Both the position numbers and the translations under genes were made by a program. Positions 33,301 to 62,100 of a stretch of DNA of 64,000 bases are shown here, piece after piece (the stretch's first letter is position 1; each line of letters begins with the position of its first letter). This DNA is from Proteromonas lacertae (taxonomy: Eukaryota; Sar; Bigyra; Opalinata; Proteromonadidae): contig NGBS01000004.1 in NCBI GenBank assembly GCA_002245135.1, positions 124,001-188,000 on the forward strand. The letters are read 5' to 3'. The notes beneath the pieces are model-generated. The model did not search any database. It was given only the letters and a program-made list of their open reading frames with translations, and was not told the DNA's origin.

Positions 33301-35551
33301 TAACATATAGAATAATTGTTCCATTGGATTATAATCTGTAATCCAATCGAAACTTACTTTAGAATTATATGTAAATCTTTCCATCGCTAAAGGTCCATGA
33401 GATATCTTCATATTCTTTGAGAATATCTATAATATAATATATAAAACAATAAAATATACTCTAATTGTCATTGGAACTGGATATATATTATTATCTTTTA
33501 AATACGACACAATTACAAACTTTGATGGTTTATCAATGATTTGCCTATTTCCCCATACTTTCATCATATAATAAGTTCGATTCTATTACACCATTAGTAA
33601 TAATATGTTAATATACCATTGATGAAGGTTCATCCATTAGTCTTTTACAATTTTCACCTGTAACATCTAAGAAGTATATTCTATTAAGGAGAAAATTTAA
33701 AAATCATTTATAGAAAGATATATCATTAAAAACATAGATATTTGAATCACTTTCATCTTTACTATGCCTTTCAAACTCAAAGTATACTTCTCCTACTCCT
33801 TTTGTTGGAGTTACTTCAAATGTATATTGATGTCTGAAATATACTTGTCTTGGAACTAGTCCTGGTAATAAAATGTGATGACTTCCATTAAATGGGTATA
33901 TTTCTTCATGATATGCTATATTTCTATTGAAATTATAATATTTAGAAAAATACATTCCATTACATTCAGGTAATACATCTTTCAACAAAAACCAAGAAGC
34001 ATTTACACTACAAAAACAATCTGCTGATTCTCGATTATATCCAATATACTATAACAATAATTCAATTATATAATATCAATACTTTTTGATGTTTTTCATC
34101 CCATATATTATTATCAATATACCAAGGTCCTTTAATGCCATGAGCATTCCCAACTAGAATCCATTTCTCTTTGTTATATTCTCGATACTAATAAAAGAAT
34201 AGAATGAATATGATAACATACAGCTAAAATAGCATATGCATGATGATGAACAATTGGTAATTTTCCTTGATCACAGACTGAAAGTGTTGATATTATATGT
34301 CCATTACTATATAAAGTGTATAATTCATTCCATATTTTATCTAAATTATTCAACAATTCTTTTGAACTATATGATCTAGTAGCACAACCAGTAAAACAGG
34401 ATAATTCACAACTGAAATAAGAACCTGTATAAAACACTTTCATTATTGCTTTTTCTAATAAACTAACCCACAATTCAGTCTGCAATAATGATTGAGCTAT
34501 AATAACACCAGAACACTCTTTACTTGTCAATTGATAATCATCGACTAGTACACTTCTAAAACATCCATTGATATATATTTTAATAACATACTTACCATAA
34601 GGATTGTAAATTGGCCAACCATCTTTGTTTTGAGGATATATCATATTCTTCAAATAGGTTGTTCCATATAATGCCATATGATTAGTGATTGCCATTACTG
34701 GTGCAATATTAGAACAATCTCCCATTTCCATTTGTTTTACTGATGGTGATAAAAAGTCTCTTACTACTTCAGGAATAACATCATAAAACTCATTTGGTCT
34801 TCTCCATACACCTTTTCCTACTAAGTCTTTTATTTTGTTATAATCAAAATCATCTCTGAAATATTCTTCATCTGTATCAAATCTTGTATTATATAATTCA
34901 TACTCACTAAATGGATTAACTGCAACTTCACCAATTCTTGAAGAATCTTTCAATATTTTGGTTTGTTCATTTTCTTCATCAGGTTTGAAAATAAAGTTAT
35001 CTTCTTTTGGATAAGATTTTAACAACTGGTCAATATCATTTAAATACTTCTTTTTATCTTCTTTTTCTTTTGATGACAATTTTTCTGAAGATTTAAATAA
35101 TGCTTTGGCATTATCTAACAGTCTTCTTGCTTCCGTATTTTTACCAACAGATCTTAAAGTTTGAGCGTATTCTAAACAGAATTTACCCTTCAGATAGTTT
35201 ATTGGAGTAGCGAATGTTTTAATCGAAGACATTGGGTAACGATACTAAATTTAGACCATTTAAAATACCTGATTAAATTGTTCATTCGCTTTATCATCAA
35301 TTAACTGTATCATCTTTAATATTTCTGAAATGCGCTTAATATTTCTTTCATAGCTATAGATCAATATAAATATGAGTTTACTTTGAGATTTTAGGAGAGG
35401 AAGTCAAAACATAATAACCATATAAAGCCTGGAAGTATAAACTTCTGGCATATAACCACAACTTCTCATTTTCTTTCTCTTTACCCTAAAGAATCCTTTA
35501 ATAGATCAGAAATACTTTTTTAATAAGCTGTTCTACATCCTGTATTTTCAT
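30371..35551 (-). CDS. CAPN7: Calpain-7-like cysteine protease with coiled-coil and PH-like extension
   Basis: Thirteen exons give 1,591 residues; exon lengths sum exactly when two AT-AC introns are used. Order: two MIT-like helical regions (residues 1-150), a calpain protease core (about 215-500), several C2-like calpain domains (about 500-1,250), a charged coiled coil and a C-terminal PH-like domain (IMDKNNSSKARILFCTDTS, GFCGEKYVNISLVESKMKRL). Family matches include IYPQNKDGWPIYNPYGKY, TELWVSLLEKAIMKV and GKWSKSDGTAAGCNN. Catalytic Cys lies in MEMGDCSNIAP and His in HHHAYAILA. The Asn motif is GNAHG rather than NPW, so activity is not certain. CAPN7/PalB proteins bind ESCRT-III through MIT domains and act on endosomes. 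The coiled-coil plus PH-like end is absent from human CAPN7 as I know it. Confidence 0.85.
32672..32722 (-). other. U12-type AT-AC intron in the calpain-7-like gene
   Basis: On the minus strand this 51-nt intron starts ATATCTTTTT, contains TCCTTAATC (U12 branch consensus TCCTTAAC) 11-12 nt before its end, and ends AC. It joins phase 2 to phase 2. The product keeps a C2-like strand pair (QYSLVLHCIHKK, then SYSFSMWS) that lines up with the CAPN7 segment. A GT-AG alternative is possible but removes one of the strands. Confidence 0.75.
33674..33721 (-). other. U12-type AT-AC intron in the calpain-7-like gene
   Basis: On the minus strand this 48-nt intron starts ATATCTTTC, contains TCTCCTTAAT with its branch A about 10 nt from the end, and ends AC. 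Both flanking exons are phase 0 (VFND joined to FLDVTGENC). No GT-AG pair nearby preserves the frame; the alternatives run into stops. All three U12 signals agree. Confidence 0.8.
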
Positions 35552-38600: not shown

Positions 38601-41600
38601 AACAGTTCTATTTTGAAATGAAAATTCATTGTTCTATAAAATTATAATATATATAAAGCAAAATATACAGGATTAAAACAACAAGATGGTAAATAGAAAT
38701 TCTTCATTTCATTATTTATATATCTTCTACACAAGTCAATGATATATTCTTTAATTTCATGAAACATATGAGAAGTTTCATAATTAAATTCCATTGGAAA
38801 TGAAAGAATGATTATCTTCTTACCTCTTCTTTTCAATTGAACATACAAGAAATAAGAAGGAATATTATCAACAATATCTTTACTATTTCTGTTTATATAT
38901 TGATATATAGAAGTATCTGCTGATGTAAAATAATAAGGATTAGTTGCAGTGATTAAATAATCACCAAATGTATTCCAAAATCCATCCTAAATAAAGATTA
39001 TGATTAAAATTACATACTTGGTTTACTCCAAAATCAGGTACTTCTTCTATACTATCTGTAATACAGTAAGGAGTGTATAAATTGTTAATATATGTTTTAA
39101 TATGACCATAATATTCTTTAACATTAGCTAAATGTTCATAAATATAACAATGTCTCAAAACTTCTACTGATAAGAATGTAACAACATCATTTGCTATTCT
39201 ACTACATATTTCACTTCCCTTTTTGTTGAAATACTCAAAATCTAATTCATCATTTTTGATTTTATCTTTCAAAACTCCACTAATTTTATATTGAAAAGGG
39301 AAATATCCTTTTATATCAATTGAATACCTGTAATTACTTCTATTATGGATAATATATTGGAAATCCTTTTCATTAATATGATTCATTATTGTCTCTTTAA
39401 AATTGGATAGAAAATCATTAACAGGGATCTATTTAAGTAAATAAATCATTATATAAATATACAGTGAAATATTTTTCTGAATTGCTATCTCCTTCTTCTT
39501 TTATAATAATCAAAATTAACACTGGTAATTCATTAGATAATCTTTTCATCTTTTCTTCTACAGTCTCTTTTCTCTCCATATTATCTGTGCTTTTACTAAA
39601 AACCCTTGTAATTGGTCTTAATGACTCTAATTCATCATTTGAATAGGGTCTCAACCAATAATTTTGACTTACTGCAAATGTTTGATTGACAAACTTTTCA
39701 AGCTTTTTCTCAAGCTGTATTGTGAAAAAGTCTAGATTATCAGTATTCATTCTTAATAACTCACAAAACATTGTAATATCTATTCTTTTCAACGTTTTTG
39801 AATATAAATATTGTTTATATCTTGTAAAAGTATTTTCACTTATATCTTCACCAAGTTTAACGAAATGAAAGAATGTTTTAACAGCTGAATAATTCAATAT
39901 GTTATTAACATCACATCTTATATCATTCAGCTTATTATTTGATATTCCTTCAGAGTTAAATGATGGTAAAAACAGTCTTGTAAGAGTATCATTTTCTGAT
40001 ATTTTTAATGATAATCTTTTAGGGTTGTATAAATGAACATTAAAATGAAAAGAGTCTATTGTGTGTTATATAAATAAATATACTTTGATGTATTGGGGAT
40101 AATGATAATACCATATTCTGTTTATGTTTTTTATCTTCCATTAGGAATACAACAAATCCACTAACATTCTTTGTTTTAAATTCATATCCATAAGTCAAAC
40201 TATGAGCTTGACAATACAGTTTAAAATATTTAACCAGATTATCATAATTATATTTAATATACATACTCTGAGCATCAGCTATTAAATATATATATATATA
40301 TATATAATATTATAATTAAATACGATTTGTTAGATTTTCAATATTATTAGCTATTGAATGTTGAACTAATATCTCCATATTATTGAATAAATTATTCATA
40401 TTGCAACATTTATTAGAATGACATTCATGGTTAGATTTACTACTCAAAGTATGATAATATAACATCAACAAATTATCTGCGAAATAACATGAATTATATA
40501 ATATTTCATTTACTTTATAATCAGCCAATTCATCAATTTTATGATGATTATGATCAAGAAATAACATCTGATTATCTACCCATAGAGATACATAAATACA
40601 TCCATCTTGAACTGACATTGTATAGAATATATGACAATCAAATTGCTTTTGATTATGCAATTGAGATGAATTATTTGGAGTAGGAGTTGAAGTAGGAGTT
40701 GGTGTAGATAAAGAATCTTCTGGAGAATCAAATTGATGTGGATATAATTTCAAACATTTGTACAATATAAAATAGTCACTTTGATTGGATTTTATTTCGA
40801 GGAAATCAGCTGTAACATGCTGTTCAATAATGAACTTTGCCACTTCATTCTCTTCTACTTGATAAGTCCAAGTTTTCTTTGTTAATGTTGGAATTTTGTC
40901 ATTTACTGAAACCCACATTTGGCCATATATCTTTTGAAACATTAAGAATTCCGATGGTACAAATGAGTAATGGTCTTTGAGGTTTTGTTTTATTTCCTCA
41001 AGATAAGAATTATTCTTTTGTGGAAATGAATTGAAATGAACAAAATGAACTGAAGTATCTATATCTTCTACTGTAATATATATTAATAGTTCAGATTTCA
41101 CATGTTTAATGATTTTATAATAAAAACAATAATCTGAACCATAACATCTTTCATATCCAATTTTTTCTAATAACTATTTTAATATAGAAATATATAGATA
41201 TTATTTATACTGAACCAATTGATGGAACTTTACTATGAAGTTCTTGACAACAATAATCTTCTTTCTATAATAAATAATAATATAAAAGTAAATATAAAAA
41301 ATACAAAAGAATACAAATCCAATAATTCAGTAAATAGATAAGGTGAAGTTCTAATAATCTCATGATAATTCAAAACTTTTGTATCAAATGATTTGATTGG
41401 ATCAATTATTGATTGATATACTATTGGAATACACTCATATTGACAAGGTAATAACGAGATTTCCATTGTAATTTGACAATTTAATTGATCATTAGTTGAT
41501 ATTGTATATAATACAATAATTGTCTCATCATAATTATATCTCAGTTGTATTACAGAATAATTCAATCTTTCTATATATGAGATAATATCAAATCCTTCTC

Positions 41601-42636
41601 TTACTCTCTGTGATATATATATTCTAATATTCTTATTTGCTGAATAAGTTGTAACTTCATACAACTGAGATTTTGGGTTTATATAATACTTACTAATTGT
41701 TACGTATTTCCTATATACATTAATTGGAATTGACTTTGCTTCTGTTACTGCATAACTTCCTGTATTTAGACATATGCTTTTGATTATATCATCGCATTTC
41801 AATATAAAATTATCAACATTGATTGTTAAAAAACATAATGTTATATCATTAGTATTGATTGATTGAATTAGATGGTTATATTGCTGATTATTCCCAAAAT
41901 TATAATATGTATTATCTAACAGAATAATTAAAATTGGATTTGCTGTATTATCTAAACGGTTTAATACATACATTGATTGCTTTAAACAGTAAGGAAAATT
42001 AGCTGGATTAGAATCTAAAATATATATTTTTTATATTATACAATCTTTGCTTTCAATGAGTGAATTAAACAATTCTTTCAGTGATTTTTCTATTATTGGA
42101 TGAAATTTTGAGTAAACATCATCATAATGCGGACGAAATATCAAATTGTGTAAGATACACATACAATTCTTGTCATTATAAAAACATAATATAGATAATG
42201 ATATTATTGCAGGTTCTTCCCTGTTATCAAATATGGTTTCGTTAAATAACTGATTTAAAAGATCACTAGCTTTATCTAAGTATAAATCACACAATTGTTT
42301 GTTATCATAGAGTAACCCAAATTGTGAACTTATCATAATGGATAGAACGATCTTATATTCAGAATATTCAAAGTATATCCCTTTAACTATTTGAATATTC
42401 TGCATTTCTGGCACTAATGATGTAGGTGTATATGGAGATGGTGTAACTGGATTTGAATAAGTATAGGAAGAAGTTGAATCTGATCCTGGTATGTGTTTTG
42501 CATCACTGTTGAATATAAGAGGTTGATGGTTGTAACCTCTTTTGAAATTGTCAAGAAAAAATAACTGTCTTTCTTGAATACCAAATTTTGATTGATTAAA
42601 CACTTGATAGTTTAAATCTTGAGATGTCAAAGACAT
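35650..42636 (-). CDS. SZT2: SZT2-like KICSTOR subunit
   Basis: Fifteen exons joined by 14 phase-compatible introns give a protein of roughly 2,150 residues. The N-terminus follows the human SZT2 pattern: VFNQSKFGIQERQLFFLDNF, a TSLVPEMQNIQIVKGIYFEY block leading into EYKIVLSIMISSQFGLLYDN, a vWA-like strand ILIILLDNTYYNF, then ICLNTGSYAV and RVREGFDIISYI. SZT2 is the largest KICSTOR subunit, which holds GATOR1 on lysosomes so that amino-acid loss shuts down TORC1. Later regions are poorly conserved, apart from scattered blocks such as IYGQMWVSVNDKIPTLTKK. It is shorter than the roughly 3,400-residue animal protein. The family call rests on N-terminal collinearity seen by eye and needs a profile search. 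Confidence 0.6.
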
Positions 42637-42753
42637 ACTAAAAATATATTCGTTTCAAAATGACTTTCTCATTTTTCTCATCAACAACAAAATATTCTTA
42701 TAAAAAAATTAAATAAATATTATATATGACATTATATTAACATCCTACGAAAA

Positions 42754-45700
42754 CTAAACATCATTATTTAAAGAAGCATCTTCAGCAATCATAGGTATAT
42801 TGTTAGCCTCATAACGGACATATTGGAATTGTTGCATTCCACTAGCAGAAGGACGAGTAAATTTACTAAAACCTGATTTATCATTAAATCTTGTTACTTC
42901 AGTCTCAATTACATTTCTTGTAGCTTCAAGTTCAGGGCTAGTTATAGGTGGAGGAGCAGGTGTAACTTTATTATCATTATTTGGAATATTCATCGGGCTT
43001 GACTTCTTTCTCCCAGTTCTACCAGATTTAGATGTAGCTTTACTATTCTGATGTAATACATAAATAGCCCAAACTTTTGGTAAAATCATAACAGAACAAA
43101 CTACAAACAATGTTGCAGAAATACCACCTAATTCTAAGAATAATAACGCATCTGGCTCTTCATAGACTAATATTTCAACAACAATAATTAACACTTCACA
43201 TGCAAACTCTGATCCAATTGATGTTGCTAAACTTCTTGATTCATTAAAATCATCTGTTAGAGTTCTAGTAGTCCAAGAGAAATAAACTCCAACACAAAGA
43301 AGAATTGTATTAACTGCAAATTCAAAAATGACATAAACAGAGTTAAAAATACATCTATTACTAACATATGTTTGAATATAAGTAGTTTTAGCTAAATATT
43401 TTGGCTCTTCATATCCTACAAATGGATCTATTAAACCCCATATTATTATAATAATTGCATGAACTAAAGCTATAATAAATATCCTCACAAATATTTGAGA
43501 ATCAGTTACTGATATTTTTTTCAATTGTTTGTTAGTCAAAAATGCATGAACTCTCCACACTTTCAATACTAAACCAGAAGTAAACATAATCACAGATTGG
43601 AATAATAAACCATACAATAATGTGCAATCTATTTCTGAAAATGTTTCAAATCTAACACATGTTGATATAATTATTGTTATAATTCCCATAACATTAATAA
43701 ATTGTAAGAAATAAGGACTTGTAAACTTGATTGTCTTTACTTTTCTATTTTTGAAAATAAAGAACATATATGATAACAAAATAGCAATGATTAATGAAAC
43801 TAATGTCAATAATGCTATTCTCAATTCTGGTCGATATTTATACATTTCTTTTGGCGTAGACATATCACATTTACCATTACCTTGTGAATTTGGAATTATT
43901 GGATCTAAGGTTGCTACAAGTTGAGGACAAACTCTGCTTAATGATCCATCATCTAATATAACTGATACAGATGTTGGTGTGATAAATGAATTATATTCTG
44001 AACCTTCCAATTTTCCAAATGGCGTTTCAAAATCTAATCTCTGTGTAGCAGTTCTTAAATAATCAAAAAGTGGCCAATCACTTCCAATATTATCATTGTT
44101 CATTCCATCTAAAGCTAATTGAACAGCTGATACAAAACCATTAAATAGAGTATAAGTATTTGCTAATGATAATGTAGCTTTTGAACTTAATCTGTTTGAT
44201 ATATACGATTGAAATGATAATGAATTTGCTACTGTATCATCATTAATGAATGGTCTCAAAATTAAGCTTCCTGATATATATGATAAATCCTGTTTAGTAA
44301 AGAAAGATTCTTGATAAAATGCTAAAATTAATTGATTTCTAACTCCTTTTAAGTCATATAAGGTGTAATAAGCAACAAATTCAACTAAATCATCATTTGC
44401 AAATGCACAAAATATTGCATAATTAGAATCGCCAATTTTCATTATATCATGAACAAAACCATCTATAAATTCATGCATTTTATCCTCATCTACATCTCCT
44501 ATTCTATATTCATATGTGGTAATATTATATTTCTTGCTAAAAGTGTTAATCATATTACCTATAGTCTTATTAAGATATGAATTCTTCATTACTTTACCAA
44601 TTATATACAGTCTATCTAAATGTGAAATATTCATATAACTATAAACAACTGGTAGTTTCTGTAGAACAGTTTGCTGTAATTGAAATACATGAGAATCACA
44701 AATATCGTTTTCTGGTAAAGATATAGATGTGAATAACATAATATCATGTTTTGCTAACTCTGGCATTACTAAATTATAAGAATATTTTGAGCTACATCCA
44801 AATAATGCTACTAAATCATCATTATGTAACAACTTTCTTATAGAACCTTCATCTTTATTCTTAATTTCTTCTCTTTTATTATTCAGGTTTACTACTTCTA
44901 GTAATAATGCATAACCATTGAATGAATTCAGTTGATTATAATCATATAATAATTGCTGAATTAGTAACACATCCATTTGTGAAATATATCTATAACTATC
45001 ACTAAAATCAGCTATATAACCAATAATTTTAGTTTTCAAGATTTCTGTTGAATTTGATTGACTAATATTACATATATATTGAGGATTATAGACAGCTTGA
45101 GCATTTGATAATGAACTATAATGATAAACATTAAACAATCTATCTTCTGTTATTCTTGCAGAAAACGTTCTTCTTGTTAATGTATTATCAATTCCTAAAT
45201 AAACTGTACCAGATGGACTTTCATATTCTCGATTATTCAATAACGCTGATACTTTATCAGGTTCAAATGATGACGTTTTCATCACAGCTGTTAGCCATAT
45301 CTTAAAACCAATATATAATCCTTCAGTTCTATAATTTGTTGTGAAAAACCCTGCTGTTCTTGTATTTAATATTGTTGGATAGTTTTTATCTGCATTTATA
45401 ATAAACTCATATTTAGTATTAACTAAACCACTGAAATAAGTTGCCATTACTGTTACATTCCTAATCATATATCTATTTTCAATGAAATCATTTTCTGTTA
45501 AGAAGAATGTATACATATCTATTCCATTACCATATCTAAAACCAATATCATATAAATCGATATAAGCTTGTAAATTATAACTTGCTAAGCAAAAAACAAT
45601 TATACAATGATCAATATCACAATAACTCTTCATAGCCAATAATTTTTTCTTATAATCATTAGCATCATAACCAATTGATTCAAAATGCAAACCAACACCT

Positions 45701-48700
45701 GAAAAAAGTGTAGTAAATTGATTTATTAAACTCATTGATATTTCACTAGAATCACCCAATAGATAAATATATCTGTCTTCATCAATTAATTCCATATACA
45801 CATTATAGACTAATGACATTTGATCAACTCCTGCAAGTATTACATTCTTTAAACAATAATTCTGAGAATAATATCCAGGATAGAAATACAACAAATTTGT
45901 ATCTTTCAAATATGGAATAGAAATAGAGAATTTCTGTGGATCATAACCTGAAAATAATACTACCACATTTGGATTATCAATGATACTTTTCAGATATTTT
46001 ATATGTAAATTATCATCACCTTTATCATCATATACTAAGGGTATTAAAAAGTAAGATAATTGTCCATTATTCGCTTCTTCAATAAGCATTAATAATGTTA
46101 ATAACATTGAAAGTGTATTTGTGTTTATTGCAGCTAAGAAAGCAACAACTGCTACTTCTAATTCATGTTTTTCATTGGATGTTACATTACATACTGTAAA
46201 ATAACTCTTCTCTCCTGAAATTGGACTTGTCTTATTAAATCCATTATCCTGTAAGTATGTAAATGGTGAATTATATTCATATCTTAATACTACTGTTGTT
46301 ATATCTTCTGAATCGACTATTCTTCTTAATTTGAAAATAGGCTTAGATCTTATATAATTATCATATCCAACATCGAAATTACCCAAATTATCAAAGTAAT
46401 GTTGCGAATATAACAATTTATTCATTTCTGACATTTTGAATGTTTTATATCTATTTATTATAGTAATCCATGCAGATAATAATCTAAATAAAGATGATGA
46501 ATAATCAGGAATAATATTAAAATCAACAATATTCTTTATTGCATCATCGATATAGCTTAAGTATAAATCTTCAGGATCTGACAGTGTTACATAGTAAAAT
46601 GGAGAAAAATCATATAGTTTATCTATCGAAATGAATGAAAAATAAGCTTTAATTAATTCTCTTAAGTTTATCCAATTGTTATTATTGTTATTTAAATAAT
46701 TCATCACCTTTTTATTTAAATCAATAGCTAAATAAAATTCTTCACCTCTGTTATATAAATCAACTAATACTTCATCTAAATAAGTTATGTTTTCAACAAT
46801 GAAAAACTGATAATTAGACATTCCATAACTAGTAAAACAATCTCTAGCCATTCTATAAGCATATTCATTTTCTTTAGATGCTAAAAACACAACTTTACCT
46901 GTATGAGCTACAGATATAAGTAACTGTGCTTCATAATTTATATATCTAGACCAGACTAAACCATGAGATATCATCTTTTTACTACATCTAAATTCCTCAT
47001 TATAATGAACAGCAAATATCATTGTGTCTTTTAAATCACTAAAAGTCTTAGATTCTTCAATCATATCTTTACACTCTGTACTTACTACCATAAATACAGC
47101 TGCAATATTTCTATAATTTGATGATTTATAATTATTAACAAAATTTTGACATGTATTAGTCGAATCAATTCCATAATAAGTTGGTGCAATTAGGTATGTA
47201 TCATTAATTATGGTATATTCTGAGTTCAATAACTTCAAAAAATAATAGAACTGAACTTTCAATGATTTATCTAATGAAGTATCATAAATTAACTGTATGA
47301 TAATTTGTCTTGATTGTAGAGTAGTCTGTTTATGATCCTTGTGAGATACAATACAAATACTTGCATTAGGATATGCCAAAATCCATGTTTCAGGTTTAAG
47401 TGAAAACTTATGTTCAACTATATAATCTATTTCATTATTATATATATAACCTAATCTGAATGATTTATATAAATAATTATTGTCAGCTATATTTGTTCTT
47501 CCAAAGGGAGTATCAATATCAGTATATTGTAAATAAGTAAAGATTTCAATTGGATCAAAAGAATTACTCAACGTTATTCCATCATGAAGTATTTTTACAG
47601 CTGTATATGAATTTGCCATTACATTTGAACTTCTATTAATTGCTAAATATTGATATAAAGATTTTTTCAAATTCTCATTAACAACTATTTTATCATGGTA
47701 ATTATAATCACTTATAAAATACAAATAATTTGTATATTTCTTATCTAATTGTAATAAATCAATCTCCTTAGCCAATAATATATAAACTTTCTTTGTTGCT
47801 GGTTCAGTTGGTGAATTATAAACAGTATAAAGGAATTTTTCCATTGAATATGTTTCTATACCAGGTATAAAAACCAAGGCACAATGATCATTACTATACT
47901 TTACAATAGTAGAAAATAGATCTTTAGTATTATTGAAATATAGTTTGAAAATATCATTACCAAATCCTGATGAATTACACATATACTGTAAATTCTCTAC
48001 AATATAATTCAAATACACATATTCAGCTTCATATATTATATGCATGCAAGTATCAGTATTATTCATTTCAAAATATACTAAGAGGAATTGCAAATACTGA
48101 TTCGGGACAATACTAGTGAAAAGAACATGTTCATCACAAATTGTACCACTAAGTATATATGGAACTAATAAATATTGATTATTCTCTCTTAAAGCAGGTA
48201 TTGCTTTCTTTATACATTTATTACTATCACCTCCTATTATAAATTGAATTCCCAATTCATTAAAATAATTCATTGCTTCATAACAATCTGGATTTTCTGG
48301 TGCATATAATTCATAACCTATTGTATATCCATTAATTATTTTATTTTGGAATAATTCTATAATGCCAGCTATTGCACCTTCTGCCATTGAATCTAATGAT
48401 GAATATGTACTTAAACTAGAAGCTAAAATACCAAATTTATATGTTTTAGATTGTTTACCACAATCACAAACCAATTGTTCTCTTGGTGATTTTGGGAAAT
48501 TCAAATAAAAAATAGGAGAGGCAAAATGAAGAATATATTTACCTTTACTTATATACTCATATAAATACATATAATGTGGGAATGTTGGACATTTGGTTAA
48601 TGTAATAATCTCTCCTGTTGGTAAAGGTAGTTGCATTCCATTATACTTTTTCATTGATATAAAATCTACAATATCATAGTTACTATCAGTAGCATAATGT

Positions 48701-51700
48701 AACATTTTAACAGATAAATAACTGTAATAGAAGAATGGATTTATATCCATTTCATTATTATATAAATCACTATGTAAATCTAACAACTTCAACGCTTCAT
48801 CAGATAGATTGTCTAAAGCAAATGGAGTTGCTATCATGTGAGTATATATATCACTATGTTTAATATTTGCATTTTTAAATAAACCAACTCCACCATCACT
48901 AACAATAGTAAAATGGATTTGACTTTTACACTGCTCAGCTAAAGCATTAAATAACTTATTATATTCGAAATTATCAAGAGCATTTATCAATACAGAATCA
49001 TCAGTGATTAATTCGCATATTCTGCTTGCTATTGGGTTGAAATCTATTGAATCTCTAGAAACAACTTTGAATTTAAATGATATCTTTGCATGCTTATATT
49101 CTAATTCAGCAGTTATAGCTTCAACTAATTTATGTGAATAAACACTGTCATTATATATAATTCCATATGATCCACTATTATTATTATTTATCAAATATGA
49201 AACTAAAGTCAAAAGAAAAGACGACATAGTCCAATGGAATGAAAAAATGTAATTATTAGCTGTTCTATCTTCAACATTTGTTCCAATATAAAACAATACT
49301 TTTTTCAATGATTTTAATTTTTCAGCAAAGAACATTATAACTGGTTCTCCTAATCCAATTATCATTTTAGATTTCTTAAACCATTCATCATTAACAAAAT
49401 CGCCTGATTCGAAATCATAATGAAATAATCTGTAATATGGTTTTATTATTTTCCCACTAATACCTTCATGCTTATTATTAATCTCATCAATTGCAATATA
49501 AACACCAGATTCTAAAGCAACTCTTACATTAACATCTTCTATTGAACAAAACACAGCAATATTATAATAGTCTTTTATTTCTATTACAGGATTATCTGGA
49601 TCTTCATAGTTACATATTTTATCAAAAATAATATTCTCCTGCAATTCAGAACTATTTCTGTCATATGTGTATATAGTAGTTAAATTATAATACGAATGTC
49701 TGTACAATATATTGAAAGCAGCAGATATAACAAATTCTTTATTAATCGAACAATGACCAGATGGTAAATCATATGTATCAATCAAATTCTTTCTGATTGG
49801 TTCAACTTCAAATGTATTATAACGATTTGTAACATCATAAAAAGCAACAATACTATTGGCTAATCCACTTTCTAAAAATGTAACTTGTGTTTGAATTGAA
49901 TAATAATAATTATAAATATTTGCCAACACTTTACTACTTTCAGTTGATCTTGAATAATCATTTGTTACTATACCATATGTATTATCGTATATTTCATTCT
50001 TATTTCCAATAAAATTCTCAGTAAATGAAAAGTAAATCTTGTATTTACTCCTTTTGTTTTTGTTAATATATTTATTATAAACTTCAATAAACAATTTATG
50101 CTCAACAGGAATAGTGATAACTAAAATACTACCTCCATTTGGCAATTTAATCAAAACATCTTTCATAAACTGATTATAAAACGCTTCAGTATTATTAGAT
50201 TCATATTTGTATAACTCTATTGAATAAGCAACTGTTGCTGATTCTATTGTATCTGCTATTTTAACAGATTGTTTTGAATATAACAAAACACAATCTTCTC
50301 TTGAACTCCATATTGGTGATTTTAAAATACCATTTACTAACGTTTCTATTGAAAATCCATTCACAACATATGAACTACAACCATCTGCATAAATTGGAAT
50401 ACCAAATGACCATAATAAAAACTTCTTTTTCTCTTCCACTAATTTCATTAATTTCAGTGTTTTTTCATCGCTTATAAATGTAAATACATGTTTTATATTA
50501 TGATTAATGTAATATTGAACTATATCTTCTATAGATGTAGTTTCTTCATCCTGTAATAATGGAACATAATAAACAGCACATCTACCAATTTCATACAAAT
50601 ATTCAGATAAAAAATGAATTAATCTTTTCATTTGGTAAGATATTCTATTATATCTTGGACTTGTTGATACTATTAGACCAATATTTTCAACTGCATCTTT
50701 TCTATCAAACAAACGAGAAGCTTCATCTGTACACATGTGAGTATCATTCACCATGATTAAAGGATTCTGTGGAATTGCTTTATCTGTTAATATTTTTATT
50801 TTTGTATCACCATCATTCATTCTAAACACATACAATGGATATTGAAGTTGATTAGATAATGAGAATTTTAAATCACCAATTACAGAATCTAATACCATCA
50901 ACTGATGAATAATATAATCTTCTGGAAGTTCACTTCCTAATGATTTTACACCCATGTAACTATAAGCTTTAAATATATTACTCATTACTACAACATCATA
51001 AATTGGATACTTCGAAAAAACATCATAATATGGTAATAATTTCATCATATTCTGTTTTACACTATCTAATTCATGAACGGGCAAAACTGTAACCACAGTG
51101 TATGTGTAATTGCTATAACCATCTTCATCTAATAGATATGAAGTTCTTGCATTTACATTAACAATTACATACTTCTTTATATCACTAAACTGTTTAAATA
51201 AAGTACTGTTATGTATTTTCACTAACTCTTCATCATTAAGATTCAAATAAACAACTAAACTATCAATAATACTACTTTCTTTATTAATCAAATCTTGTAA
51301 TATATCATCAACACTCATTCGTCGAGTAAAATATATAAGGGGAGTAATTGGATCAGCACAATATTTTTCAATAGTTCCTTTAAAATATTCAGCAACATTG
51401 TCATCATTAGGAATAGTACTTGAAACATATGCAAAATAATTAAATCCTTTTTGAAAGAAATCAAATAATGTTGTAGTAAAAAACTGTTTGGTTAAACAAC
51501 CAAAATGATAAACATGTGGATTACAGTCATTCCCATCCCAAGGACTTATGGAATAAAACATTCCTTTAAACTCCTCTAAAACAGGATTCAATGAATTTAA
51601 TATCGATTTATTATGATATCCTATAACAAATCCAATTCTATGTTCTTCGAAATAATGTCGAACAATCTCTATGGAGTTGTTTAAATTAGTACTTTCCAAA

Positions 51701-54134
51701 CTAACTGGAACACTTTCATATTCTATATCAGTAGACTTTTCTTCAGCATATGCAGTAATAAACATGGAATATAATGCATCATAATAAGGATGTTTATCAT
51801 TATTTACTAACGATATTATATGATATACATCTTTATTCACTATATATCCGTTATTTGCATTCTCACTATTATATTCACATATATCAATTTGTTTATTAGT
51901 GGCTAAAAATGGTTTTTGAGATCTAGTTAATGATACATCCGATATTTTCCATATAGCTCCACTATTAGTAGAAGGATCAATTGTTACAGCTGATTTTAAT
52001 GTATAAATTGAATATAATTGTTTATTAAACCTAACACGAATATCAGAACCTTGTGAATATGAAAATGATGAAGGTAATATCTGAAATTCTAATAACGAAC
52101 TTGATTGGATACTTTTATAAAAATTCAAAATCATTGACAATGCAATATAACCTTGAGATTCTATCTGATGATAATATTGATATAAAAAGGAAGTTCTCCA
52201 TGCTGTGGGTTGGTATAAATGGAATTGAACTGTTGAATAACCTTCCCATTTAATACCAGATTTACTTGCTGATAAATAATCTTGATAACTAAAATCTATC
52301 ATAAAAACATTATCAGATGTGTATGATTTAGTTTCATAATATTTCATGAAATTGTTCTTATTAATATCAGCCATCAGTGTGATTATAGTTAGATTCTTAT
52401 CTAATATTTCTAATTCATATTTATCAAGTCTTTGTTTATAAAAATTAACATCGTTACTCTCATCAACATATATAATTTCTCTACAATTCTTTCCATAACT
52501 TCTACAACTATATTCACATGCTGATTTACCATATTCACCATTTAAACACACTAATACAAAACCTCTTTTTAGTTTTGGTGTAACATAATAACTTATCTGT
52601 GACATTGGTGTTAATGATACATGAAATACATGAGGATTACAATACTGTCCTGTCTCATAACCAATTGCAAATATATATGGAGATAAAACTTTATTTTCTA
52701 ATATTCTACTCAACAATTTCTTTCCATAATACATTATCACTATTTCTATATTTTTCGATATTATATCTTCATATTGTGCATCTATTGTATCACCAACTGC
52801 TTTATATAATAACATCTTTGCATCAAAATGATGTGAATTCTGCAATAATGTGTCTAACGATTGTAATAAACTGTTAAAGAAATCAGGATAACTTTCTCCT
52901 TCAATATATCCTATTCTTAGAACTGGCATTTCTTCTATAAAACCTACTTTACATGTATATAAATCAAATTCCTTTAAATCATAAAATGGTTCTCCTTGTA
53001 TATTGGTCAATAACAATGTAAAATGTGCAAAATTACCACTCAATACTTGTGCTATATATACATTACGTTGCAAATTTAAATTGTATTGAAGTATAATTTT
53101 ACCATATGAATAAATCAACTCCAAATCATCAATGTAAGGTATTAGATAAACCTCACCAAGTGTTTCATATTCTGTAGCTTCATTTAACTTTCTAATTAAT
53201 TCAAGAAACAATATTCTATATAAATAAATAAATAAATAATATATATACGTAGAATATTCTGCATCTGTTATTACTTCACTTGGATTAGATGTCAATACAT
53301 CATTTAAACCTAGATTATCGATAAACGAAGATGTTGCTGGATTATCAAAGAAATAACCAGACATTACATATATATTCTCCATTATAGCATTATTAGCTTT
53401 AAGGAAACGTTCATCTACATTTGCTACACACAACATTACCTTATGTTTTAAATAAATATTACTTGATGAATAAGCTTTGATTGAATTTAGAAGTATTGCA
53501 TCATCACCATAAAAATTTACAATAAAAATCCTTTCAGACACTTCTAAAGATGTAAAAAGCTCTGTAAATCCAACTTCATTTGTAGGAAATTTATGAGAAA
53601 TTACAGTGAATGATAATCTCTCTGCTAAATTTGCTGTTACATTATATTTGCATGAATTTTTCTCTGCCAAGATCAAGACTTTATGGAAACCATCTTGAAA
53701 AAATGTGATTAAAGCTATAATATAAAATTTATATAAATACTTTGTTTTATAGGTTGCTGTATAAGACCACCTCTAACAATATTTGTAGTACAACCCATAC
53801 AAGCAGAAAAGGATGGATAGAAGTATATAGATTTATCATCATAAAACGGGTCTAATGGGGATCCTCTTTCACTATCTGAATATATTGACGTTAACTCTAA
53901 AGGTTGATGATGATTAAAATAGAAAATTTCATTTCTAAGCTTTGCATTACTGATGTACGACTTTAGAATCACATTTGGGGATGAATCTGTGTAAATATCT
54001 GAGTAAATATATATTTTGGGGGTAAAACTCCAAACTGATTTAAATATAATAAGAAAAATCAAAAAATAACACATCGTTACATCAAAGGTCAAACGTGTTT
54101 GAATTAAATTTGGTGTTCGAAAAAAGTAATCCAT
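42754..54134 (-). CDS. Giant class C GPCR with nine tandem periplasmic-binding-protein-like domains
   Basis: Three exons (introns 53715-53740 and an in-frame 33-nt one at 53216-53248) give 3,773 residues. A signal peptide, probably from the second Met (MCYFLIFLIIFKSVWS), precedes nine venus-flytrap modules starting near 54010, 53150, 51830, 50690, 49570, 48470, 47350, 46190 and 45030. Repeated landmarks are a hinge motif like YCNPHVFHVS, DCNPHVYHFG, ICDEHVLFTS or ICDSHVFQLQ, and ends like SGTVYLGIDNTLTRRTFSAR. Both recall bacterial amide/urea-binding proteins (AmiC, UrtA). Module 5 has a textbook ANF-receptor opening (GVYIAIDEINNKHEGI). Seven membrane helices follow (about 43,100-43,830) with the GABA-B-like LKVWRVHAFLTNKQLKKI, then a disordered tail. 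No cysteine-rich linker precedes the helices. It is probably a surface chemosensor; the ligands are unknown. Confidence 0.88.
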
Positions 54135-54220: not shown

Positions 54221-55921
54221 TTATTTAGTTTTAGTTTTAAATCCAGAATTAGGTGGGAATATACTATTCAGATTAAAATAATACTAAAAATATTTATACT
54301 TTATTGGTAATTGAGGTATTGGACGAGATGGTGGAGGTCCTACTGTTGACATTGCTTTATGTTGGCCATTTATCATCAAAGGAGTTGAAGAAAGTGGATT
54401 CAATTGAATAATACCATTAATAGTTCTATACTTTCCATTATTACTATTTCTCCCAATCACACCATCACTCAAACTATAATTATCCAATAATCCACTTCTG
54501 GATGGTGGTTTTATAGGTAAATTGTTCTTATCATCTTCTTTATATTCACTAAATATATTAGGTAATGCAACTAACCTCGATCTGTCACTTGGAAGTGGAA
54601 CATGAGGCAAACCTCCACCCATCATCATATCTCTCTTAGATTCATCTTTACTCCTCTTACGCTGATGTCTTCTACCACCTCTTTCACCACTAACATTACT
54701 ACTGTGTTTACTTTCATCATCACTGCTCTTGTAATGGCCAATTGTTTCTAAACTACATCTACTTCTTAATACATATCGATTTCTTTCTTCTTCTTTATTT
54801 TCATTTTCTTTATTATCTTTAGATTCTTCACTTTGTCTTGATTTGACATTAATATCAACAATTGGTTGTAAAATTGGTAAAATTTTGTTTTTAGACACAT
54901 TAAATTCACAACCATCTCTTTCAAAGGCTTCTTTCAATTCAGGTAACAATTTATCATAATGATCAGTAAAATAACGATGATCTAATAACTGGTCACAATT
55001 ATATCTCTTATCAGAGTCGCAATATAAACAGGAATGAATAAAATCAAATGTTATTGAATCTAATGAATTTAAACGATCAACTAAAGGGACTGGATCACTG
55101 CACTATTTAAATATAAATAAATAAATAATATAAATACTTCTGGTATTTGAACACCTAGATAAGATGGATTAGTTTCAAATACGTGAATCAAATGAGGTGA
55201 TAAACTACCTAAACATCTAACTATATGATATAATTGATCAATATCACTTTCTCCAGGAAAAAGTGGTTTACTTGTCAACATTTCGGCGAGTAAACAGCCG
55301 ATTGCCCAGATATCGCAAGGCCTACCATACTGAGTATCTCCTACTAGTAATTCTGGACTTCTGTACCATCTAGTAGACACATAGTCTGTATATTTTGCAT
55401 CTGGTGCTGATAATGTCCTTGCAAAACCAAAATCACTTAATTTCACTACTCCATTGCTAGATACAAGGATGTTTTCTGGTTTTATATCTCTATGTATTAC
55501 ATTTAAAGTATGGATATAATCAGTTGCACTTAGTAACTGAAACATTATCTTTCTTGCTTCATTCTCATCCATACCATTTCCAGAATCTTCAATTAATTGC
55601 AATAAATTACTTTGTACATATTCAAAGACTAAATACAACTTCCCTTTATTCCTAAAATGCTCGATTAGTCTAATGATGTTCGCATGATGCAAATTCTACA
55701 GAAATATATATACCCGAATTATACTCTTAATATTCTAATTTCTCTTATTGCTGTTTTCCTTACAGCCTCATTCATATCTGGTTCTTTGAATTTCTTGATA
55801 GCTACGATCTCACCAGTGTCTTTATGACGAGCTTTTAACACAACTCCATATGTTCTAAGTATTAAATAGTATAATAATTATACCCTTCACCTATATGAGC
55901 CAAGATCTCATAGTTCTCCAT
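54221..55921 (-). CDS. CDKL5-like serine/threonine kinase
   Basis: Five exons give 523 residues (introns 55855-55883, 55696-55724, 55103-55137, 54264-54299). The last 43-nt exon encodes [15 protein letters not shown]; without splicing the frame stops earlier at 54284. The kinase domain (about 1-290) shows [49 protein letters not shown], the T-D-Y activation motif ([15 protein letters not shown]) and [11 protein letters not shown]. These match CDKL kinases, particularly CDKL5/CDKL1, which control cilium length and microtubule proteins. The 230-residue tail is charged and Ser/Pro-rich, as in CDKL5. The start MENYEIL is canonical for the family. Confidence 0.9.
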
Positions 55922-56164: not shown

Positions 56165-59100
56165 CTATTCTGTGCAACATAGCAATGCAACACCTCTTAT
56201 AATCCAATGAACTGGTTTATAATCTCTACTTGGGAAAGTTACATTAAAAATCAGATATTTATCTGTTCTTTGTGGATATTTATAACATGGACATTCATAA
56301 CCACCATAAGGACCATAATCTCCAGCTTTGTTCTTCTTCTGTGCACTTGTCATAGCTGATACTCTTAATATTGGTAATGGATGGAATAACTGTTTAGGAA
56401 TTGATTCAACTAATGTACCATCAGACTTATTCCAAGCAGCACCATCCAAATATAATCCATAAACCAAAACACCTTCTTTTGGTTGAGATTTGATCCTATC
56501 TTTATCAAGATATTCTGTTACTTCACTATAATATGATATATCATCCAAAGACCATTTATCTTCAGTATGAGCTCTAGTAATATCCTGTCTCATTGCTGTT
56601 AAGAAACCTTGAGGATTAAAGAATCCAGTTAACCAGAAACAGTTTGGTTGCCCTCTTTCCAACCAATTTCTTAATTGTGAATCACGATCTATTAAACCAG
56701 TATACCATATACCTAATGTGGGTGATATCCAAGCAATTTCACTACCAGTTAAATCATATATCCATGTCTTTGGAGGTTTTGCATCATAGATTGAATTCAA
56801 TGCATCTATCAAATCAGGAGTCATTACAACTTCACCTTTTAATGCTTGGATTAATAATGACAATGTCTTATGGACGATTTCTAATACATTTTCCATTCTT
56901 TGCACTTCTTGGTATAAGAATATATTTAATGGTTCACCTAAACCACCTAATTTATCAATACTTGTCATATAGAAATCTTCATCATAGAATTTGGGTAACT
57001 TCTCTAGCAATTCTTCAGCTTTATCTTTCACTATATCTTCTCTTGTTCTACCACTACCTGTATTACTTTCTTTAGGCAATGTTTCTGATACTGTAGCAAT
57101 CATTTGATGTACTTCTTTAGTTCTAAATGTAAGTGAAGCATTAGGATGTAATCCAAATATTTCTGGTGAATCATCATCTGGATATTTCTGTATAAATTGT
57201 CTATACACTTCAATATCATTCTCATCAGGAATTGAATACACAAAATCATTCGGCATTTTATTCACCATATGTGATGGATTGAATGAGAAATTGGGTGCTA
57301 ACGTTGGAGGACCTACCCATTCACTAACATATGCATTAAACAGTCTTCTATCCATTTCATCAGTGATTCTTCCACCATATTGCACTTCACTTATCATATA
57401 TCTCAGTGTTTGCCATGATATTGGACCAGCATCCATGTGTTTCTCTAAGAAGGTTATACAAGCTGATAAATCAGTATTATTATATTCATATGGAATATTC
57501 CAACCTAATGAACCATATTTACGTCTTTCTTGTACGATTGAGTGAATGAAACATAATGAATATAATAATATTCTCCATTGATTATTATCTTGTCGATCTA
57601 AGATATCTTGATCAACGATTATTGTATAAGAACGATACATACCAGCTTTCAATCCTTTTGGTGGTTCATTAGTTAATTTTACTGACATATGTAATAAACC
57701 GATTGGGAAATTATTATCAGGTTCAGCGGTTATAAACAATCTAAACTCTTCATTGATTGGTTCTTCTCTTCTTTCAAAGGTACTTTCTAGAGATTCCATA
57801 TATTTCAAATCCAAGTGACAGTTCTGTAATAATACCCAATTACCATTTACCATTGATTCTTCAATTGTTTTTTGTGCTATTACATCTTGACCTTCACCCA
57901 TAGAAACACAAGTAATATCCTTCTTTCTCTTCTTTGCTAATTGTTCAATACTTTCAGTTGGATCTGCACCAGCTGATAATAAGCAAATTGCTGGTGTTTT
58001 TTCAGTCATATCTTCAAATAGTGTAACTATTGAATCATTACAAGGTTCTATATATTTTGGACCTAATACTGGAATAACATTTCCATCCTTTTGTACAATA
58101 GATTCTATTGATTTTATAACTTCTTGCAAGTTTAATATCAGTCTATCTTCTCTTAATGTTCTAATAATCATCATTCTTCTGAATAAACCAATCTCTTTTT
58201 GATTCTCAAATTGCATTTCATACATTGGAACTGGCATTTTCTCAGGTTCATCACTTTCATACCATACTTTCCATGATTGTTCATCTCTTGCCATATCTTC
58301 TACCAATAAATTATAAAAATGACAATTCTCTGATAAGTAAATTACATTTAGCCAGACACTATCACTCATCCAATTGAATGGTTTTCTTTTTACTGTATTT
58401 ATATCCAAAGATGCACCTCCTTTTAATAATGTCATTACATCCTGTTGATTGATAATCTCAGCTGCTGTTAATATCTTTAATAATACACACAATAAGAAAC
58501 TTAATTTATCTTGTACATATAAACCACGATTAATATATCTATAAGTAATATAAGTCAATGTAGAGATAATATTAGTGACTCTTTGACCTGTTAATACTGC
58601 CTTTGGAGCTGTAATCATAGATCTTTCGAATAAACCTAAGAATTGTCCTAATGATGTTTGATACATTGTTGTAATCATTGAAACATCACAAATACTGAAA
58701 TACAATACACTTCCTCTTGTAGCTACTGGTCTATAATGTTCTCTCTTTTCATTAACTGTAGCTTTGGTTGCTGCAGCTGCAACTAACTTCTCACTCACTT
58801 CTGCAGCTTTACGTTTTGTATCTGCTAAGACAGTGATTAATTCTTCATCATCTAATAGATTACCTTCATTATCAGTCAAACGTTGTAATAAAGCAGCATC
58901 TAATTGTAATAATGCTTTCGTATTGTTTGCTACTGAAGCTAATACGGATTTTAATTGTTCTTCTAATGATTGTTGTTCTTGTTGAATAACACGACCTAGT
59001 AATTGTTCTTCTAAACCTTTCATTGTTACAGTAAAATCGACTAATGTTGTTCTTGCCTGTAATTCTGGTGTAAATAATGGATTTGGTAATCTGGTGAATA

Positions 59101-62100
59101 TATATAACATAAATGATTTATCCATTTCTACCATCTTACTACCTAACATAATATATTCAGTCTTTGCTTTTTTAATAATCTCTTTTTCTAATACTGGATC
59201 TAATAATGGATCTACTTCATGTTCTACACCAGTAATAATCAAAGTTTTACCTTCTTCCATAGCAAATTCCAATTGATCTCTGAATTTAGGATGAGATAAT
59301 GTAGTAGAACCATAATCAGGCATATTATTAGCTTCTAAAGCTCGAATCCAATTCAAACCTTGTCCTTGTGGATCTATTAATAATGGGAATCTTGTTGTTC
59401 TTGACATTTTGACTAATATACCATTCTGTATAGAAAGTGAATCTGTTGGTAAACCTTGAACTGCCCATTCACCTGTTGTACCAGCATCTACTAAAAATGA
59501 ATTCAACTCAAAATCATCAGATTTTGGAATTCCTCTTTGTGCTATATCAGCTAAGAATATATCTCTTCTTAATATATCTCTATATTGTTGATTAAACGGT
59601 CCACAATAAGATAAGAATGCACAAGCTAATGCTACATCACCAATTAATGATTTCTTCTTAGAGGCAAAGTGTTTGGAATCTTCAGTCCAACGTACTTGTT
59701 CTCCTGATAATCCTTGAATCAATGCAGTTGCTTTTTCCATTCTTCTTTTTGTCGATTTTGCATTTTCTTCAATTCTTGTTTTCTCGTTGATTTTATCTTG
59801 GAAATCAGCTTGTAATTTATCTAGTACTTCTTTACATTCAGCTAATCTTGATTCAGCTTTGTTTAATTCCTTTTGAGCTTGATCTAATTTTGCTTCTGCT
59901 AATCTCAATGTTTCTAATTTTGGTTTTACTATCTTTGAAGCATCATGATATTGAGCCATTGCTCTAACCCATGCACATAAACCTTCTGCTGCTTTTGATG
60001 CATTTCTTGCTACAGCTGGTGTAAATTGTTCTAAATTCAAATAAGGTGATAATAATTCTATTGTTTCTTCATTGATTAAATCTTTCTTAAACTCACAGAA
60101 TTGGAATAATTTGGTTAAGAACTTTGCATCAGCCAACATTCCCTTTTGTGCCATATTGTATGAATCTTTCAAGAAATCAATTAATGTCTTTTCTTTACCA
60201 ATACCTAATGCAACTTGTGTTGGTTCAACTCTATTCAAAGGCTCCATTTCTAATATAATCACACAATCAAACACAATCTTGATAATATCAGCTGGTTTTG
60301 GTAATTTCTTTAATTCTACTAAATCTGATTGTTTAATGGATCTTACAGCTGCATCCGCTGCATCTAAATATGGTTTTGCATTTGCTAAATCTTCAGCTGC
60401 TGCATCTTTCTCCACTTGAATTGCATTTCTTTCAGCTTCTAATTTATCTCTTATTTCTTCTACTACATCACTCTCTTTCTTTGCTTCTAATGATTTGGCT
60501 TGTAAATTACCTAACATCTCACTAGCAGCTTGTTCAGCTTGTAATAACTCCTTTTCTTTATCAGCTAATTCGATTTTCATCTTTTCTACATCTTTTGCAC
60601 CATCTGCTAATTTGGTCAAACCTAATTGAACTCTCTTTTCATTATCTTGAATCTCATGTAATTTCTCACTATATATCTTCATATAATTATCTAAGAATGA
60701 TAAGAATGATCTTGGTGTTTGATAAACTTGTCTTCTCATTTGATTGAAGTATTTATCACATGTTAAAACAACTTCGTTATGAACATATCCCATATGTTTC
60801 ATTAAATTACCTTTCACTTCATCTGTTGCTTCAATATTGAACGATGTTAAGAAACCTCTTGATACATTAATCAAAGCTTCTTCTGGCCATGGTAAGAACC
60901 AATCAATTGTTGTACCTGTGATTAAACCTGGGAATTTTCTAGCTCTTTCTGCAAACATTCTAGACATTGGTGACATACAAATAACTAAATGTAAATTACG
61001 TCTAACTCTTTCAATGAAATATTTTGCTAAGTTTTCTAATGTATCAACGAAATCAGGATTTTCTTTCAATGCAAATGGTCTTATTTCACCAGACATCATT
61101 GTCATTTCATCTTTTGGGAATAAACCAACAATTTCACCTGTTGTTAATATATTATTAATATATTCTAAGAATCTTTCATCTTTAATCATTGTTTCTGTAA
61201 ATAAGAATGTAGATGGTTGACCTAATTGACCTGCAGCTTTATATATAATTCTCAAATCATCTAATAATGAATTGATATTATAATTCTTAGTTATTGTCAA
61301 GGAATACACTTTCTGTCTAGCAATATAAGATGCTAATTGTGTTAAAGATCTTTTACCAGAACCACCAACACCAACCAATAATAAATTACCTTTTGGACAT
61401 CCTAACACTCTACTAATTCTCATTAAATGTTTCAAAGCATCATCAAACAACACTAATCTCATTGCTTTGGATGGTCTTTCATCATTATGTTCTTTCAAGA
61501 ATTGTTCAACTCTTGTACGAATATCTTCTAACTTAGGACCTAATTCATAGATTCTGGGTGCTTCTTGTTCCAATGTTCCATCTGCATCATATACATCATC
61601 TCTTAAGAAATCAACAAAGTATGATTCATATATTCCAGTTTTACCTACCATTTCTACATATGTCTTATTATTGACTATCTTTTCTAATATTTTGTTTTGT
61701 GTCTTTAACAATGCTTGTTTATCATCAAAATTAGTCAATTTATCTGAAAACACTCTGAAACATTCATGTCTCCATAATTGTAAGAATATTTTTGGTGATG
61801 TTATTTCGTCTTTAGTTGTTCTTAATATACCTTGGAATACTTTACTTAATTCTCTCATATTGAAACTATAATGGAACTTAGAAGGTGTTGGTAATAATGT
61901 CTTATTAGCCCATTGCCATAACTGAATTGTACCATTAACAATCTTTTCAACATACTGTCCAAAATTATCTGGAAATTCATTCGTTTCTAACCATCCTCTT
62001 ATCATTTCACCATAAATACCATCAATCACTGGAACATCGGGTAATGTCATATTAAACATATAAAATCTACCTTTTAATCTCTCAGGAATATCATTCTTAC

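Follow-up and report, generated by a model that had tools for sequence, protein, structure and literature searches.

In the textbook arrangement, a class C (glutamate family) G-protein-coupled receptor (GPCR) has one Venus-flytrap (VFT) domain that drives one seven-helix transmembrane (7TM) domain, usually in a dimer. Here we describe a gene predicted to place nine VFT modules of bacterial type ahead of a single GABA-B-like 7TM. It lies at positions 42754-54134 of a 64,000-nucleotide (nt) stretch of DNA from the protist Proteromonas lacertae (assembly GCA_002245135.1, contig NGBS01000004.1, positions 124,001 to 188,000), hereafter called the window. Like GABA-B (subunits 1 and 2) among the class C GPCRs, the receptor combines a class C 7TM with a flytrap ectodomain and has no NCD3G match (by Pfam, in the receptor or in the three relatives scanned), whereas in mGluR, CaSR, and T1R an NCD3G cysteine-rich domain stands between flytrap and 7TM. 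However, GABA-B proper has one ANF-type flytrap on its 7TM, and the receptor has nine of the Peripla_BP_5/6 type, with no Pfam match to ANF_receptor at E values up to 1.

Fungal class C receptors carry one of several kinds of binding domain, with N-termini of up to about 1,600-1,667 residues (PMC5168858, PMC3251606; here and below, statements about cited papers refer to the accessible parts of their text). The anaerobic gut fungi have many class C receptors whose binding domains are of bacterial type, but the domains are type II (SSF53850) or pectin-lyase folds on N-termini of 200-1600 residues (PMC5168858), in contrast to the type I, UrtA-like modules and the N-terminal part of about 3,400 residues found here. 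The dictyostelid family 3 (Grl) receptors are likewise protist class C receptors with flytrap-type domains; their ectodomains are ANF-like, BMP-like, or have no recognized domain (PMC10445921). Among close relatives of animals, diverse ectodomains are reported in a 2025 survey (PMC12716839). A flytrap array goes unmentioned in the accessible text of these four papers, and the departure from a single flytrap claimed in the original prediction is supported as far as that text on fungi, dictyostelids, and relatives of animals goes. Among bacteria, the kinases BvgS and EvgS also join multiple flytraps to a single output, although there tandem or two flytraps sit on a sensor kinase, as opposed to nine on a GPCR (PMC4352136, PMC5573083). 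These kinases were the nearest case in a literature search by title and abstract start, which found no multi-flytrap GPCR, and no paper naming 7tm_3 and Peripla_BP_6 together, most subscription papers lying outside its scope.

The gene reads on the minus strand from 54134 to 42754, exactly the interval first proposed, and consists of exon 1, one predicted 26-nt intron, and a second exon of 10,961 nt; an open frame of 3,672 codons spans 42754-53772 on this strand. Once exon 1 is joined to exon 2 across the intron, the protein has 3,784 residues, laid out from N to C terminus as a hydrophobic N-terminus, nine VFT modules, a class C 7TM, and a conserved tail. The modules were detected with a profile built from 134 paralog modules, with the receptor itself and its ortholog P0001 excluded (the left-out profile). 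In a search of 22 sequences, this profile found nine modules in the receptor, at E values from 2.1e-6 to 2.5e-40, and the lowest E value among the reversed sequence and 20 shuffles used as controls was 0.035. The features are as follows, with module boundaries outside the profile matches set by hand.

53741-54134, minus strand: exon 1, with the ATG at 54134, the hydrophobic N-terminus (residues 19-37), and the start of module 1
53715-53740, minus strand: predicted 26-nt intron (GTATTT...TATTATAG), which keeps the frame open
42754-53714, minus strand: exon 2, with the remainder of module 1, modules 2-9, the 7TM, the tail, and the stop
52933-54023, minus strand: VFT module 1, residues 38-392, with the intron inside it (left-out profile E 2.1e-6, residues 99-356)
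51814-52932, minus strand: VFT module 2, residues 393-765 (left-out profile E 3.7e-8)
50689-51813, minus strand: VFT module 3, residues 766-1140 (left-out profile E 3.2e-21)
49519-50685, minus strand: VFT module 4, residues 1142-1530 (left-out profile E 1.1e-17)
48424-49518, minus strand: VFT module 5, residues 1531-1895, the sole module without the cysteine discussed below (left-out profile E 6.1e-21)
47323-48423, minus strand: VFT module 6, residues 1896-2262, with the best Pfam Peripla_BP_5 stretch (left-out profile E 2e-39)
46192-47295, minus strand: VFT module 7, residues 2272-2639 (left-out profile E 1.3e-11)
45004-46191, minus strand: VFT module 8, residues 2640-3035 (left-out profile E 2.5e-40; tblastn to bacterial urtA 5e-10)
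43834-45003, minus strand: VFT module 9, membrane-proximal, residues 3036-3425 (left-out profile E 2.6e-30)
43039-43833, minus strand: class C seven-helix domain, about residues 3426-3690 (Pfam 7tm_3, hydropathy, and GABA-B2 match)
42757-43038, minus strand: presumed intracellular C-terminal tail, about residues 3691-3784 (conserved in the ortholog)

Other searches agree with this count. A Pfam scan of the receptor matched Peripla_BP_6 (8.9e-31, four stretches), Peripla_BP_5 (1.7e-27, three stretches), and 7tm_3 (1.1e-24). Nine modules were also obtained when a profile was built up from one module across the receptor, ortholog, and paralog frames, and two further seeds gave the same result; with module 2 as the only seed, the profile failed to converge, returning 2 matches at every round. 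It should be noted that seed-grown profiles contain the receptor's own modules, which inflates their E values, and that the left-out profile is free of this effect. Taken with Pfam, the left-out profile bears out the proposal of nine modules of periplasmic-binding-protein type and one GABA-B-like 7TM in a single gene. The modules are highly diverged from one another (modules 2-5 and 7-9 are just 12-16% identical to module 6) and of similar length. Module 1, which had been thought shorter than the rest, has ~355 residues compared with ~365-396 for the others, and its apparent shortness was an effect of the intron; in the seed-grown profile its match spans residues 42-356. Several alternative short introns at the same junction likewise leave the frame open. 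The 26-nt intron (53740-53715) is preferred because the homology of module 1 in the left-out profile crosses the junction, and because it resembles the three introns of 29, 29, and 35 nt predicted in the neighboring gene (window positions 54286-55921, minus strand), which we name a CDK-like kinase by sequence reading.

Judged by its 7tm_3 score (88 bits against a curated cut-off of 33.5) and its motifs, the receptor is a class C GPCR. Hydrophobic peaks between residues 3433 and 3685 fit seven helices, and the solved structures related to the 7TM by sequence are GABA-B2 (2.3e-14), GABA-B1 (5e-7), and, weakly, GPR158 (0.004) and mGlu5 (0.015). The class C hallmarks include a cysteine pair linking the third transmembrane helix (TM3) to the second extracellular loop (ECL2), an FNE(S/A)(R/K) motif in the third intracellular loop, and a PK motif. 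Here, FNESRSL occurs at residue 3621 and LPKVW at residue 3676, and seven columns are invariant across 16 receptors of the genome, among them C3495 and C3586, which fit the TM3-ECL2 disulfide. G-alpha is matched 12 times in the same genome (lowest E value 7.2e-105), which we read as about four distinct genes, and RGS 85 times. Such genes would be necessary, but not sufficient, for the predicted coupling of the receptor to G proteins. As a separate observation on these gene families, one contig region (G000:C1118:51837-52937) has an RGS match and a sub-cut-off 7tm_3 match on the same strand, in frames that are both 687 amino acids long, and may encode a GPCR-RGS fusion. Tandem RGS domains occur on four other contigs (G000:C85, C371, C633, and C36), with up to five matches in one 939-amino-acid frame (C371).

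The ortholog P0001 is a protein predicted in a separate data set from a relative, and it is 72% identical to the receptor over 3,501 aligned residues. Its predicted frame begins later, so that it is without most of module 1 and is aligned from about residue 293; from residue 301 on, the alignment is nearly gapless and leaves out only 6 of 3,484 residues. Identity between the two proteins is 65-79% across modules 2-9, the extremes being module 4 (307/389, 79%) and module 5 (234/362, 65%). The 7TM is identical at 225 of 265 residues and the tail at 81 of 93. Because P0001 retains all these parts at such levels, the array looks to be maintained under selection, and none of modules 2-9 appears to be drifting away. 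The idea of decaying modules was rejected on the same identities.

Within its own genome, the receptor has many relatives. There are 132 matches to 7tm_3 (near-identical copies and fragments of a single gene among them), with 123 above the cut-off and 36 inside open frames that reach 2,000 codons or more. At 20 paralog loci, taken as ~10-kb stretches, a script that joins split pieces found five to eight modules each (five each in L025-L027, where the stretches are possibly cut). Five of the paralogs were read further upstream, with split pieces joined by hand and a first module that is weak in some cases (in L009, one piece at 2e-4); this gave nine modules for L009, L015, and L016, eight for L011, and seven for L028. 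In the protein database, five predicted proteins of the source lgn also match (P0001, P0003, P0004, P0005, and P0006). P0003 is a single frame of 3,886 amino acids with a hydrophobic N-terminus, nine Peripla_BP_5 stretches, and then 7tm_3. Five, seven, and six module matches were found in P0004, P0005, and P0006, respectively, all of which start or stop inside a module. ANF_receptor is above cut-off in P0003 (3.8e-9) and L016 (7e-17), with Peripla_BP_5 far ahead in both (9e-168 and 1.4e-145). Over the last module and the 7TM, the receptor is 17-24% identical to the 20 fetched paralogs. These comparisons make it an outlier within a large and old family of receptors of the same protist, and the nine-module plan is not a one-off, as it recurs in P0003, L009, L015, and L016. 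A protein-database search with a profile of the last module and 7TM of 16 receptors gave one match at E of at most 1e-10, an insect GABA-B subunit; scoring was limited to the 8,000 candidates with the most words in common, and the result is a poor guide to the rarity of the family.

The order of modules along the chain was tested by comparing, in terms of distance from the membrane, each module with the best-scoring module of another receptor. The full test covered 23 receptors, with the ortholog and near-identical copies included, and 160 modules (168 found, minus 17 shorter than 200 profile positions, plus nine of P0003). Receptor pairs are not independent, so the counts, set against expectation, should not be read as probabilities. 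When the last modules of a pair shared 60% identity or more, the best match was at the same position in 148 of 148 cases; at 30-60% identity this held for 1,073 of 1,074 (151 expected), and below 30% for 1,056 of 1,916 (284 expected). Restriction to 19 non-redundant receptors, without the ortholog, gave 58/58 at 60-90%, 825/826 at 30-60% (115 expected), and 720/1,276 below 30% (187 expected). Starting from the receptor itself, with the ortholog left out, 76 of 143 best matches were at the same position (21 expected). Counted from the membrane, agreement is high at position 1 (16/21), position 2 (20/21), and position 4 (18/21), and lower at positions 3 (7/21) and 5 (8/19). The near-exact matching by position implies that the array predates much of the receptor radiation, and that its positions have kept separate identities. 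By this comparison, positional lineages hold within the family, and the receptor's own N-terminal modules fall outside that claim.

The ancestry of the modules was addressed with a profile of 44 modules (eight of the receptor and 36 of paralogs) compared with solved structures, so that the result applies at the level of the family and not to each module alone. The best match (8tg1, 1e-67) is deposited merely as an extracellular ligand-binding receptor. Three urea-binding proteins follow at 6e-63 to 6e-61, one of which (8hic, 6e-63) is matched over profile positions 4-336 of 337, indicating whole-domain similarity to UrtA. AmiC is at about 5e-34, and after it come other ABC-type binding proteins, mainly of the branched-chain amino-acid kind, with glutamate receptor 2 near the end of the list. 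When module 8 alone was used in tblastn, it matched 57 plasmid records (best 5e-10); of the five listed, three are annotated as urtA and two are unannotated. By profile similarity, then, the modules derive from UrtA-type urea-binding proteins, and the resemblance to amide- and urea-binding proteins noted at the outset is supported, with the urea-binding proteins nearer than AmiC.

Both UrtA and AmiC (Peripla_BP_5) share with the modules an EGxEC..N segment as well as the domain profile. A recurring C[ND]xHV motif, at first described as a hinge motif that is degenerate in modules 4, 5, 7, and 8, aligns with the UrtA segment EGQECSNN, on the pocket side and preceding the hinge, so the hinge label does not hold. 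The motif is indeed literal only in modules 2, 3, 6, and 9, but its cysteine survives in modules 4, 7, and 8, and is present in eight of the nine receptor modules (all but module 5) and in 115 of 134 paralog modules. Motif loss as a sign of decay is not supported, given that the cysteine is kept in all of these modules but module 5 and that, among modules 2-9, it is module 4 that has the highest identity to the ortholog.

In UrtA, urea is hydrogen-bonded by S122, Q144, Y190, and N246 (PMC10392092). The receptor modules, fused in tandem to a receptor, differ from UrtA in this respect, and none of the four residues is present in any of the nine. Among the fetched paralogs, one such residue is found in 27 of 134 modules and none in the remaining 107. 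Because no module of the receptor retains any of them, urea is unlikely as the ligand, and a urea sensor was rejected as the default.

With a probability of roughly 0.6, we favor a G-protein-coupled chemosensor whose 7TM would be driven by the module next to the membrane, with further inputs or reach contributed by the remaining eight. Such a receptor would sit in the plasma membrane. Its membrane-proximal module would close on a ligand, or rearrange against a partner chain, and thereby switch the 7TM in the manner of GABA-B; modules farther out may bind other small molecules or act as dimer contacts, and several inputs would tune a single output. It is possible, though doubtful, that each receptor of the family is a position-coded integrator of multiple inputs, in which nine flytraps with long-kept identities of their own recognize different small molecules and act allosterically, along the chain, on one 7TM. 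Equally tentative is the corollary of fixed pockets at some positions and varied pockets at others, the latter for receptor-specific specificity. The main rival to the chemosensor is one sensor on a long stalk, which we consider unlikely. Only the membrane-proximal one or two modules would then bind ligand and drive the 7TM, and the rest would be spacers or a dimer scaffold raising the sensor above a thick cell coat. The absence of the urea-binding residues from all nine modules would fit a stalk, as would pockets without significant extra conservation in the ortholog pair (53/69 pocket positions identical compared with 2,087/2,959 elsewhere, P = 0.29; 141/185 when the pocket is widened by one residue, P = 0.10). 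A comparison of pocket columns with random columns within the main group of paralogs (11 receptors, but eight for position 7) can be read both ways. Conservation of the pocket columns is highest in the last module (0.56, compared with 0.42 for all columns; P = 0.08) and position 3 from the membrane is variable (P = 0.02), as a stalk would have it, but positions 5 and 6 also lean toward conserved pockets (P = 0.08 and 0.14). Position 2 leans the same way (P = 0.15), and positions 4 and 7 lean variable (P = 0.14 and 0.26). Moreover, the positional lineages and the ortholog identity of modules 2-9 exceed what a spacer would seem to need. Several of these results tell against the chemosensor too: the two tests in the ortholog pair are not significant; the mapping of the pocket from UrtA is uncertain for modules 1, 2, and 7; the paralog pattern is weak, with one of seven positions (position 3, variable) at P < 0.05, uncorrected; and same-position matches of the receptor to its paralogs are near chance at positions 6-9 (2/18, 3/14, 2/7, and 0/1). 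Pocket conservation was accordingly set aside as proof of ligand binding. The position-specific pattern hints at different roles along the chain, and we treat it as a lead only.

The remaining explanations are much less probable than a chemosensor. The chain could be an adhesive or prey-recognition protein that binds cells or polymers, with the 7TM mainly an anchor or contact sensor. The very long ectodomain, with its 28 N-glycosylation sequons, speaks for this, and adhesion receptors usually have ectodomains of comparable length. However, all nine modules belong to a family that binds small molecules, the 7TM is of class C and not of the adhesion class, and Pfam matches no adhesion domain in the receptor or in the three relatives scanned, which makes such a function improbable. 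We give even less credence to the suggestion that the region encodes several products, through alternative transcripts or proteolytic cleavage, instead of one nine-module chain. That modules 1 and 2 have the weakest matches to the left-out profile speaks for it, but the second exon is unbroken, the ortholog stays in frame from about residue 293 onward, and in P0003 one frame takes in the hydrophobic N-terminus, nine modules, and the 7TM. That the locus is a pseudogene or an assembly chimera is scarcely credible: some other 7tm_3 matches in the genome contain internal stops, but this gene has no sign of them, its frame is open for 3,672 codons, and a diverged ortholog keeps the frame in a separate data set.

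Other genes and sequences were noted in the course of the analysis. Just downstream of the receptor on the same strand (window positions 39433-42654, minus strand) are four frames of 210, 285, 265, and 207 amino acids. Pfam matches neither the 285- nor the 265-amino-acid frame; the latter ends in a hydrophobic stretch, and the four are possibly one multi-exon gene for a membrane protein. On the minus strand at 56165-62515 is the heavy chain of an axonemal outer-arm dynein, whose best solved match is an outer-arm heavy chain, presumably that of Tetrahymena; the organism therefore has flagella or cilia, or has retained their genes. A ciliate origin, to which this match had pointed, was dropped in view of the telomere-like repeats described below and of uL3, which matches the presumed plant and Tetrahymena ribosomal chains equally well. 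A calpain-family cysteine protease is encoded at 34174-35244 (minus strand). The region 9651-20953 (plus strand) contains large frames of 1393, 428, 1363, and 636 amino acids with a strong GC skew (0.29-0.41); the last frame has matches to EGF_2 and teneurin-type EGF close to its end, and the Pfam matches are otherwise below the cut-off. Elsewhere in the genome, the end of contig G000:C139 (L048) has TTAGGG mixed with TTTAGGG, the only telomere-like end among the 16 viewed (120 bases each).

Descriptions of animal class C receptors give them one flytrap module at most, and a family with nine would contrast with them. If the position-coded integrator were real, one protein would report a chemical combination rather than a single ligand. 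With nine flytraps on one 7TM, in an order kept over deep divergence, the family would be a natural test bed for the coupling of distant sites to a GPCR, and it would also probe how one chain can read several chemicals. The finding bears, too, on how often bacterial binding proteins have joined class C 7TMs, the source here being apparently UrtA-like and not of the animal ANF type.

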